Of a stretch of 14,322 bases of DNA, positions 2,034 to 11,383 are shown in pieces. The notes beneath the pieces are model-generated. The model saw nothing but the letters and a program-made list of their open reading frames with translations, did no database searches and was not told the DNA's origin. Numbering within the stretch: the stretch's first letter is position 1; every line of letters starts with the position of its first letter. The DNA is from an alpha proteobacterium 3107 (GTDB lineage Bacteria; Pseudomonadota; Alphaproteobacteria; Rhodobacterales; Rhodobacteraceae), in assembly GCA_001483205.1 (NCBI GenBank), contig JPPB01000206.1, positions 1 to 14,322 on the forward strand, read 5' to 3'. The translations under genes were made by a program, and so were the position numbers.

Positions 2034-2915
2034 ATGACCATGACGGCAGAGGTGGAAACCCCATCCGGCAAATCCGCCGCTGACGAGAATTTCCCGGTCG
2101 GCTCGGTGCTTCTGCCCCCCCGTCTGCGCCCGCATATCAGGCTGTTTTATGCGTTCGCCCGCGCAATCGACGACATTGCCGACACGCCCGACCTGACCCC
2201 GGCTGAAAAGATCAGGCGCTTGGACGGGTTTGCCGATGCCATCCGGGGGGGCGGGTCGCCCGCCCCGTCCTTCCGCAAGGCCCATGCACTGCGCCACAGC
2301 CTGACAGAGACCGGGGTGAGCGACCGCCATTGCCTCGACCTTGTGCGCGCCTTCCGTCAGGATGCCGAAAAACTGCGCTATGACGATTGGGATGACCTGA
2401 TGGGCTATTGCGACCTGTCGGCCGCCCCGGTCGGGCGCTATCTGATCGACCTGCACGGCGAATCAGCGGCGGCCTATCCGTCATCGGATGCCCTGTGCAA
2501 TGCGCTTCAGGTGCTGAACCATCTTCAGGACTGCCGCGAGGATTATGAGACGCTGAACCGCGTTTACCTGCCGCAGGACTGGATGGCGGCGGCGGGGGGC
2601 GATGTCGGGGCTTTGGGGCAGGCCCGCGCGGATGCCGCGCTCCGGCAGGTGCTGGACCGGTGCCTTGATGCCACGGAACAGTTGCTGGCGCGCGCCGAGC
2701 CGTTGCCCCGGCGGGTGCGCGGCCTGCGCTTTGCGATGGAGGCCGCGGTGATTATCGCCATCGCGCGGAAACTGCTGGGTGCGCTGCGCAGGCGGGATCC
2801 GCTGGCCGAGCGGGTGGTGCTGTCCCGGTGGCAATTCGCGGCCTGTGTGCTGGTCGGGGTTGGCAGTGTTCTGAGGGGCCGAGCCGTTGGCCTGTTCCGC
2901 GCCGCGCCGGAGTGA
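2034..2915 (+). CDS. hpnC: Hydroxysqualene synthase HpnC (squalene/phytoene synthase family)
   Basis: A 293-residue prenyl-transferring enzyme of the trans-isoprenyl diphosphate synthase head-to-head class. In the bacterial HpnCDE route, HpnD condenses two FPP to presqualene diphosphate, HpnC converts this to hydroxysqualene, and HpnE reduces it to squalene for hopanoids. Visible features are ENFPVGS near the N-terminus, the first aspartate motif DDIAD (46-50), FRQDAEKLRYDDWDDLMGYC (about 107-126), SAAPVGRYLIDLHGE, and the second aspartate motif NHLQDCREDY (D166 and D170). The N-terminal ENFPVGS and the LQVLNHLQD region favour HpnC over HpnD or phytoene synthase. ATG 2034 is preferred over an upstream TTG (2016) because AAGG lies six bases before it; ATG 2040 is an alternative. 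No hpnD, hpnE or shc is nearby, so the gene is separated from its usual partners here. It converges on ispH across a repeat-filled gap. Confidence 0.88.
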   Translation: MTMTAEVETPSGKSAADENFPVGSVLLPPRLRPHIRLFYAFARAIDDIADTPDLTPAEKIRRLDGFADAIRGGGSPAPSFRKAHALRHSLTETGVSDRHCLDLVRAFRQDAEKLRYDDWDDLMGYCDLSAAPVGRYLIDLHGESAAAYPSSDALCNALQVLNHLQDCREDYETLNRVYLPQDWMAAAGGDVGALGQARADAALRQVLDRCLDATEQLLARAEPLPRRVRGLRFAMEAAVIIAIARKLLGALRRRDPLAERVVLSRWQFAACVLVGVGSVLRGRAVGLFRAAPE

Positions 2916-2922
2916 TGCGCCG

Positions 2923-2988
2923 TTATGCAAGCGCTTTCATCCCATTATGCAAGCGCTTTCACCCCATTATGCAAGCGCTTTCATCCCA
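2923..2988. repeat. Three tandem 22-base repeats carrying LacI/GalR-type operator cores
   Basis: Three head-to-tail 22-base copies occupy 2923-2944, 2945-2966 and 2967-2988. Copies 1 and 3 are identical and copy 2 differs by one base (T to C). Each contains TGCAAGCGCTTTCA (2926-2939, 2948-2961, 2970-2983), centred on the palindrome AAGCGCTT. This fits the general LacI/GalR-family operator pattern TGNAANCGNTTNCA at every fixed position. A 22-base period is about two helical turns, placing the three sites on one face of DNA. The array starts seven bases after the hpnC stop and ends ten bases before the ispH stop, so it almost fills the convergent gap. Twenty-two is not a multiple of three, so the array is not a peptide repeat. 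The regulator and regulated gene are unknown. Confidence 0.7.
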
Positions 2989-2998
2989 TGCCTTGCAC

Positions 2999-3955
2999 TC
3001 AGGCCCTGCCGCCATCTGCCCCTGCCAGTTCCCTCGGCAGCCGGAACGTCACGTTCTCCTCGATCCCCTTATAAGCGGAAACGGTGACCTCGAACATCTC
3101 TTCCAAACGCTCAATCAACCCCTGCACAAGGTATTCCGGGGCCGACGCGCCCGCCGTGACCCCCACGGTCTTCGCCCCATCCAGCCAGGCCGGATCAAGG
3201 CTCCCGGCATCGGGAATAAGATAGCTGTCGGTGCCGGACATCTCACCAATCTCGCGCAGGCGGTTGGAGTTAGAGCTATAATCCGCGCCGATCACCAGAA
3301 TCACGTCAGAGGTTTCCGCCAGCAGCCGCACCGCGGTCTGACGGTTCTGGGTCGCATAGCAGATGTCCTTCACATCGGGGCCCTGAATACCGGGAAACCG
3401 CACCTTGAGGGCGGCGATAATTTCGCGGGTGTCATCGACGCTGAGCGTCGTCTGCGTCACATAGGACAGCCGCTCCGGGTCGGCAGGCTGCAATGCCGCC
3501 ACATCCGCCAGGTCAGAGACCAGATGCACGCCGCCGGGCACCTGGCCCATAGTGCCCTCGACCTCCGGGTGTCCGGGATGCCCGATCAGGATGATTTCAT
3601 AGCCCTGCCGCGCGTATCGCTTGGTCTCGTTATGCACCTTGCTGACCAGCGGACAGGTGGCGTCAATCACCCGCAGGTCACCGTCCCCGGCATCATCCCA
3701 CACTTTGCGCGACACCCCATGGGCGCTGAACACCGCAATCGCCCCGGTCGGGATGTCGCTGACTTCCTCGACGAACCGCGCGCCCTTGGCGACCAGACTT
3801 TCAACAACATGCTTGTTGTGAACGATTTCATGGCGGACATAGACCGGCGCGCCGTAAATCTCCAGCGCCCGCTCCACGATGTCGATTGCCCTGACAACAC
3901 CGGCGCAAAATCCCCTCGGTTGGGCAAGGATCACCTGCAATGGTCGTTTGTTCAA
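2999..3955 (-). CDS. ispH: 4-hydroxy-3-methylbut-2-enyl diphosphate reductase
   Basis: A 318-residue iron-sulfur enzyme, last step of the MEP pathway, reducing HMBPP to IPP and DMAPP in the cytoplasm. The three conserved cluster cysteines are present: C17 (PRGFCAG), C101 (DATCPL) and C199 ([10 protein letters not shown]). Substrate histidines are H46 ([10 protein letters not shown]), H79 (FSAHGVS) and H129, and the catalytic glutamate is E131 ([11 protein letters not shown]). Length is normal. The start is TTG at 3955: no ATG is nearby in frame before the conserved Cys motif, and GGGAG lies seven bases upstream. GVVRAI replaces the common GVDRAI after the first Cys, a known natural variation not affecting ligands. 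The 192 bases between it and the phosphatase gene hold only a weak GC-rich stem (GCCCC at 4100-4104, GGGGC at 4108-4112) and no clear gene, so it may be co-transcribed with the pnt genes or have its own promoter. Confidence 0.96.
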
Positions 3956-9437: not shown

Positions 9438-9461
9438 CGACCCATCGACCCATCGACCCAT
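9438..9461. repeat. 8-base tandem repeat (three copies) overlapping the cobT start
   Basis: CGACCCAT is repeated three times without interruption (9438-9445, 9446-9453, 9454-9461). The last copy supplies the AT of the cobT initiation codon at 9460. It fills most of the 38-base cobS-cobT gap where a Shine-Dalgarno would be expected, and none is visible there. Confidence 0.75.
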
Positions 9462-11335: not shown

Positions 11336-11383
11336 CCCGGCCCTGATGCTGTCAAAGACCTCTGCATATTGACTGGGGCCGGG
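11336..11383. terminator. Weak inverted repeat in the cobT / membrane-protein convergent gap
   Basis: CCCGGCCC (11336-11343) and GGGCCGGG (11376-11383) are complementary, separated by 32 bases, within the 88-base gap between two convergent genes. Position suits a bidirectional terminator, but the loop is long and there is no T-run beyond either arm, so it is only a candidate. Confidence 0.2.

Follow-up and report, generated by a model that had tools for sequence, protein, structure and literature searches.

Tandem LacI-type operator-like sites between convergent hpnC and ispH genes in a genome with wide spread of the same motif

We analyzed a stretch of DNA of 14,322 nucleotides (hereafter, the window), which is contig C206 of a 2.17-Mb assembly consisting of 337 contigs and 93% complete. 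The window contains the convergent genes hpnC and ispH, which were identified using protein family profiles; the start codon of hpnC (2034) was our choice. hpnC ends with a TGA stop codon at 2913–2915, 7 bases before a tandem array of 22-bp repeats, and the stop codon of ispH at 2999–3001 begins 10 bases past the array. The array thus fills most of the 83-bp gap (2916–2998) between the two genes. The positions of these features are summarized in Table 1.

Table 1 Features in and around the hpnC-ispH gap of the window.
Feature	Position	Strand	Remark
hpnC, squalene synthase HpnC	2034–2915	+	TIGR03464, 281 bits (cut-off 250.45)
22-bp repeat copy 1	2923–2944		operator-like palindrome TGCAAGCGCTTTCA at 2926–2939
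22-bp repeat copy 2	2945–2966		operator-like palindrome at 2948–2961
22-bp repeat copy 3	2967–2988		operator-like palindrome at 2970–2983
ispH, 4-hydroxy-3-methylbut-2-enyl diphosphate reductase	2999–3955	-	TIGR00216, 314 bits (cut-off 187.85)

Tandem Repeats Finder placed the array at 2923–2989 with a period of 22, 3.0 copies, 95% matches, and a score of 127, the highest among its 23 rows for the window. A single base sets copy 2 apart from copies 1 and 3, and the array is a near-exact triplication of one operator-like site and an 8-bp spacer. The pattern TGNAANCGNTTNCA matched the window three times (2926, 2948, and 2970), compared with a mean of 0.01 in 200 shuffles, none of which reached three matches. 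Neither a sigma-70-like promoter nor an intrinsic-terminator-like site (G+C-rich stem followed by a T run; 0.4 expected in shuffles) was detected in the region 2700–3300. The array is therefore located between two stop codons, outside the promoter region of any regulated gene. The base-by-base coordinates, both protein families, and the promoter scan bore out the initial annotation in two respects, namely three nearly identical 22-bp tandem copies and their location between the stop codons of convergent genes with no visible promoter.

An initial search of the genome was performed using a single 14-mer with one mismatch allowed. Perfect sites, defined by TGHAAGCGCTTDCA, occurred 59 times in the genome, and the reversed-pattern control did not occur. 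Markov models of order 2–5, trained on the DNA of this genome masked around the sites, predicted 0.06–0.23 matches on both strands; because the motif is nearly palindromic, this was halved to approximately 0.03–0.12 sites, or about 0.1 genome-wide. The looser pattern TGNAANCGNTTNCA yielded 72 sites against approximately 1.7 expected, 13 of which differ from TGHAAGCGCTTDCA in the core. The variant TGCAAGCGCTTTCA found in the window is in the minority (6 of the 59 perfect sites). Among 393 other genomes of the family, which include no second genome of the same genus, 282 contained no perfect site and 111 contained one to eight, the largest counts being 8, 6, and 4. This genome is thus a clear outlier in site number. 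The initial annotation had considered a random scattering of the motif over the genome; the 59 sites are indeed widely scattered, but their distribution is patterned rather than random, as described below.

The genome contains five genes for proteins with a LacI-type helix-turn-helix. The search for the motif and for flanking LacI regulators, proposed at the outset, led to one of these on contig C53, which adjoins two perfect sites (L058:5048 and 5070, a spacing of 22 bp; hereafter, the hps twin) and is transcribed away from them. Its product is an uninterrupted protein of 368 amino acids that has kept the ligand-binding domain. The divergent gene encodes 438 amino acids, with (R)-DHPS dehydrogenase of the HpsN type as the best match among solved proteins (8wwe_A, 734 bits), and is followed by genes for an SDR protein and a zinc-dependent dehydrogenase-like protein. 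A galactarate/altronate dehydratase family protein, SuyB-like by gene order, is encoded farther along the locus. Homologues of hpsN, hpsO, and hpsP, for dihydroxypropanesulfonate breakdown, were arranged in the same order in all three relatives fetched. The LacI gene hpsR (SPO0590) precedes hpsKLMNOP in Ruegeria pomeroyi (PMC4334477), and the corresponding cluster of Cupriavidus is hpsRNOUPsuyAB (PMC11382572). Because its hpsN-hpsO-hpsP neighbours are as in these bacteria, we call the C53 LacI gene hpsR-like, and its product, hereafter HpsR, is the likely cognate regulator of the motif, as judged from sequence.

The importer genes seem to be missing from this locus. A short frame, MLIVTLIIAYVPTISTVLLPDIYK, lies between the operator-like sites and hpsN (L058:5128–5202) and resembles the end of the gene that precedes hpsN in two relatives; the counterpart in L255 is MLIVVLLIAYIPAISTTLLPDIYK, and that in L254 is less close. 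As the gene before hpsN in the relatives is hpsM by gene order, the short frame is likely the last 24 codons of hpsM, suggesting that hpsKLM have been lost apart from this remnant.

We compared the surroundings of orthologous LacI genes. Orthologues of the HpsR protein (50–72% identity) were found in ten relatives among the 61 genomes searched. A perfect site was present beside the gene in nine of the ten, with a second site (0–2 mismatches in the 12 fixed bases) at a distance of 20–23 bp. One of these nine relatives (L136) has three sites in a row, spaced 21 and 20 bp. The remaining orthologue (L133) has no site in the fetched stretch, and a site occurs approximately 2.1 kb away in its genome. 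The recognition helix VSTATVSR was found in HpsR and in nine of the ten orthologues (L137 was not read by the pattern), and the remaining four LacI proteins encoded here have different helices. The helix is also present in two more distant LacI proteins (L139 and L140) with no perfect site beside the gene, indicating that VSTATVSR alone is not specific to this operator. The assignment of the motif to LacI/GalR-type operators, as the initial annotation had it, is thus supported at the sequence level, and the motif is tied to one group of LacI orthologues.

The spacings also agree with this assignment. The sites in the window are separated by 22 and 22 bp, within the range beside the orthologues. 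In a survey of LacI-family sites (PMC4052901), tandem spacings peak at 13, 22, and 32 bp, and three adjacent sites precede 116 operons. The sequence therefore supports the idea that a period of two helix turns is an arrangement suited to cooperative binding. In the same survey, less than 1% of LacI sites lie in coding regions and more than 75% are located 140 to 30 bp upstream of the start codon (PMC4052901).

These results bear on two further proposals, that the array controls an antisense promoter or that it is the remnant of a lost sugar operon. The three-site array beside the LacI gene of L136 is the one observation in their favor. The region 2700–3300 contains no promoter-like site, a gap of 83 bp leaves no room for a gene remnant, and the operon that the regulator probably controls lies on a different contig and is one for sulfonate breakdown. 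Both proposals are very improbable, and the sugar-operon claim is left unsupported.

The 59 perfect sites were sorted into classes by hand: 33 lie in a dispersed repeat, 17 in coding sequences, and nine elsewhere, with coding and intergenic status assigned by our own codon-usage gene caller, which was trained and checked on the window only. A recount by script gave 34 repeat, 17 coding, and eight intergenic sites, because the script assigned the hps twin (two sites) to the repeat and a partial copy (L085) to the intergenic class; with both reassigned, the split is again 33, 17, and 9. The dispersed repeat is modular, with two palindromes 21 bp apart, and is present in 28 copies. These were collected by similarity search with one copy as the query, and 40 of 248 first-look candidates were scored, so that some partial copies may have been overlooked and the alignment may favor good copies.

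The dispersed copies resemble known repeats in several respects. REP-type repeats are biased to the three-prime ends of genes. A hand count of gene ends next to the dispersed copies gave 29 three-prime and 11 five-prime ends (p = 0.006), and the 12 copies with both neighbours visible comprise six convergent, six tandem, and no divergent arrangements. Eleven of the 28 copies lie at contig ends. The sites could accordingly be inert, REP-like or MITE-like intergenic palindromes that were multiplied by transposition or template switching, in which case binding would be irrelevant and the triplication in the window would be slippage. The near-identity of the three window copies, spacers included, is what slippage gives. 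A BLAST search with the 75-base core of the dispersed repeat (E 1e-4), however, found nothing similar in the window, indicating that the motif is embedded in more than one sequence context. Over 45 bases, the hps twin is 87% similar to this core. Mobilization by a RAYT protein was also considered. The assembly, 93% complete, contained no match to the Y1 transposase family PF01797, and the same search was positive in 5 of 14 control genomes, which argues against this route and, in turn, against an inert REP-like element.

To examine constraint within the dispersed copies, 25 of the 28 were aligned. Site 1 departed from the consensus at only 1 of 300 positions across its 12 fixed bases, compared with 40 of 891 in the flanking conserved core (Fisher p = 0.00015, a rough value, as related copies are not independent, were found by similarity, and represent 40 scored of 248 candidates). 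That site 1 departs less than the core around it argues against inert repeats. Departures were more frequent in the spacer (18 of 175) and in the outer modules (more than 20%). The difference was less sharp with both sites taken together (9 of 600 versus 40 of 891; p = 0.0016, rough for the same reasons). In 18 of the 25 aligned copies, the second site is TGTAAGCCCTTACA, in which the central CG is lost, and it should therefore be weaker as an operator. Both of these observations count against the operator reading.

Adjacent palindromes can also pair as RNA, which counts against the operator reading. Predicted folding of the window array gave z-scores of -2.5 (plus strand) and -1.7 (minus strand), and the hps twin sites gave -5.3. 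The alignment makes an RNA hairpin less likely as the conserved feature: the change of CGC to CCC in site 2 (18 of 25 copies) has no matching change in site 1, and any two copies of a palindrome fold. No Rfam family matched the features at the gathering threshold in the window and five loci of this genome with repeat copies; the only match in these sequences was a SAM_alpha riboswitch outside the repeat (L063:3371–3449, minus strand).

The coding sites are the main puzzle, as repeat copying leaves all 17 unexplained. KALT/KALS/KALA and ESAY/ESAF contexts account for most of them, so that they occupy more than one reading frame, and by eye they have nothing beyond the 14-mer in common (loci L001, L005, L006, L007, L064, L086, L087, L089, L091, L092, L093, L096, L097, L189, and L190), which is a further point against inert repeats. 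The one coding site compared with relatives, in an aminotransferase gene (L097), falls in a stretch that is variable among 29 other loci; one relative reads ESAF at this position with other codons. Considering all of these results, we regard inert repeats as the main rival explanation, possible but doubtful.

Sites of this number in both coding and intergenic DNA may also suggest an architectural function, with HpsR or a protein of the same specificity acting at approximately 60 sites as a nucleoid-organizing or occlusion factor in the manner of Noc or MatP. The 59 sites far exceed chance expectation, and 17 of them are coding in more than one frame, as this proposal would have it. Over half of the sites belong to the repeat family, however, and HpsR still has a ligand-binding domain and is encoded next to the hps operon. 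Isolated sites are also not particular to this genome: in the family genome G119, which has eight sites, two of those fetched stand alone. We therefore consider an architectural role quite unlikely. A many-copy uptake-type motif was also judged unlikely, because in the sequences of this genome masked around the sites the short core AAGCGCTT was not enriched (4 versus 7.9 expected) and AGCGCT was depleted (52 versus 159.3 expected).

The nine other intergenic sites are the three in the window, the hps twin, a pair on contig C314, and two singles. The C314 pair (L090) consists of sites 21 bp apart located 15 bases after a stop codon, and this array and that of the window have GGGATGAAAGCGCTTRCATAATGG in common. 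At L095:1879–1913, upstream of a small frame on C123, we observed TGTAATCGCTTACA with similar half-sites around it at approximately 22 bp by eye, which may be another operator cluster. The window contains a second short tandem repeat at 9438–9461, between cobS and cobT, in which the 8-base unit CGACCCAT is repeated exactly three times and runs up to the start codon of cobT. The sequence GACCTCTGCATA, at 11357–11368 of the window and in many other loci of the genome, terminates another dispersed element, possibly a MITE or IS remnant, whose ends resemble AAGACCTCTGCATAATGG and CCATTATGCAGAGGTCTT.

Another palindrome, CTTATCCGCGGATAAG, is more numerous than the operator motif, with 128 exact copies in the genome and 206 with up to one mismatch (for example, L063:1751, L197:537, and L243:1501). 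It lies in part near the operator repeat, and all 27 occurrences in 15 loci of this genome were intergenic, some being counted twice in overlapping loci. Thus, two palindromes resembling protein-binding sites are spread in the same genome. Outside this genome, CTTATCCGCGGATAAG was found in 3 of 148 family genomes. Two of these three carry four copies, almost identically spaced, within and near a gene of the ParA type; the gene beside it, checked in one of the two, encodes a DnaA N-terminal domain, and the locus looks like a DnaA-like plasmid replicon. Such replicons are known in Rhodobacterales (PMC9025767). Together with the hps locus, the DnaA-like plasmids of relatives suggest that the family is that of the Roseobacter group. 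CTTATCCGCGGATAAG may therefore be the centromere of a DnaA-like replicon. The greater number of this palindrome favors inert repeats, since it indicates that palindromes may spread in this genome for reasons unrelated to HpsR.

We next compared the gap with other hpnC loci, which were obtained from 27 of the 61 genomes (this one included, most being distant) and from 31 named records. The pattern TGNAANCGNTTNCA was absent from the 60 hpnC loci other than that of the window, one of which is a second, paralogous locus of this genome. ispH was within the flanks of seven of the 60, on the same strand as hpnC and approximately 2.3–2.4 kb downstream. These seven are MAG records labelled Binatia or Deltaproteobacteria (L158–L162, L164, and L169), in which hpnC is 67–71% and ispH 79–83% identical to those of the window; the likeness across these labels hints at gene transfer or mislabelling.

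The arrangement of the gap may suggest that the array evolved as a dedicated roadblock against collision of hpnC and ispH transcription, replacing an intrinsic terminator. The array fills most of the gap, which has no terminator-like site around it, and the neighbours of the 12 dispersed copies with both visible are convergent or tandem and never divergent. In E. coli, LacI is reported to act in vivo as a block to RNA polymerase, an effect that depends on its affinity and concentration (PMC4132739). The site is not specific to this gap, however, as 59 are present in the genome; it is hard to see why hopanoid and isoprenoid genes would depend on a repressor of sulfonate catabolism, and the convergent hpnC-ispH pair was absent from the 60 other hpnC loci scanned. 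A dedicated roadblock is accordingly unlikely. More generally, the presence of the site at many other loci, and a regulator whose operon points to a sulfonate, make any dedicated role of the array for hpnC or ispH unlikely, and the special arrangement for these genes suggested earlier is unsupported.

We therefore favor, with a probability of roughly 0.5, the reading that the array consists of three HpsR-type LacI operators in tandem and is a local product of a genome-specific operator spread. Weighing against this reading are the 17 coding sites, the weakened second site of the dispersed copies, the orthologue L133 with no site beside it, the more numerous palindrome CTTATCCGCGGATAAG, and the minority status of the variant in the window. 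As the 59 sites fall into repeat, coding, and other classes, the array would be one outcome of this spread. Judged from the sequence, HpsR most likely binds the array, which would serve as a sink and have at most a weak roadblock effect. In this model, HpsR dimers would occupy all three sites in a cooperative manner, on the same face of the helix. Occupancy would not be expected to switch hpnC or ispH on or off, because no promoter was seen in the gap. In trans, the array would be one of approximately 60 sinks that lower the concentration of free repressor, and the idea of a decoy or titration array, one of several put forward in the initial annotation, gains ground. A cis effect is conceivable because of the blocking reported for LacI in E. 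coli, and would be at most a weak, inducer-sensitive roadblock to read-through from hpnC and ispH. Plausibly, a palindrome bearing the operator was copied and then multiplied locally by slippage. The array is best read as ordinary in its form as an operator array and remarkable as a piece of a genome-wide operator spread.

Operator amplification may even have turned HpsR into a genome-wide factor, either one that structures the nucleoid or a titrated switch that responds to the dose set by the repeats; we consider this speculative and rather improbable. The operator type of a single local repressor recurs in the dispersed repeat, the tandem array, and the coding sites, in 1 of 394 genomes of the family. 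If the repressor binds them, this genome would be a natural experiment in operator amplification, in which titration, roadblocking between convergent genes, and the possible change of a local regulator into a global DNA-binding protein could be studied directly. The spread of CTTATCCGCGGATAAG suggests that protein-bound palindromes may be a favored seed for such repeats. To our knowledge, descriptions of bacterial repeats seldom name a specific regulator, and in the open-access literature we found no report in which the operators of HpsR, or those of another local regulator, had spread as repeats.

We also compared the sites with known systems. Similar to REP, BIME, and MITE repeats, the dispersed copies are palindromic, modular, and biased to the three-prime ends of genes; here, however, the palindrome matches the operator of a local regulator, no RAYT gene accompanies it, and the window array, a tandem triplication, contains none of the repeat's modules. 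The sites of Noc and MatP are likewise short palindromes in tens of copies in coding and intergenic DNA, whereas the likely binder here is a catabolic repressor and 33 of the 59 sites are borne by a repeat. The LacI gene by hpsN, hpsO, and hpsP in the same order is shared with Ruegeria of the Roseobacter group (PMC4334477); this genome differs in its 59 sites, compared with zero to eight elsewhere in the family, and in the missing hpsKLM. Finally, the even palindrome, the central CG, the spacing of approximately 22 bp, and the grouping in twos and threes are those of tandem LacI operators in the survey (PMC4052901), in which most sites lie upstream of start codons, whereas the present array lies between two stop codons and 17 of the 59 sites in its genome are coding.
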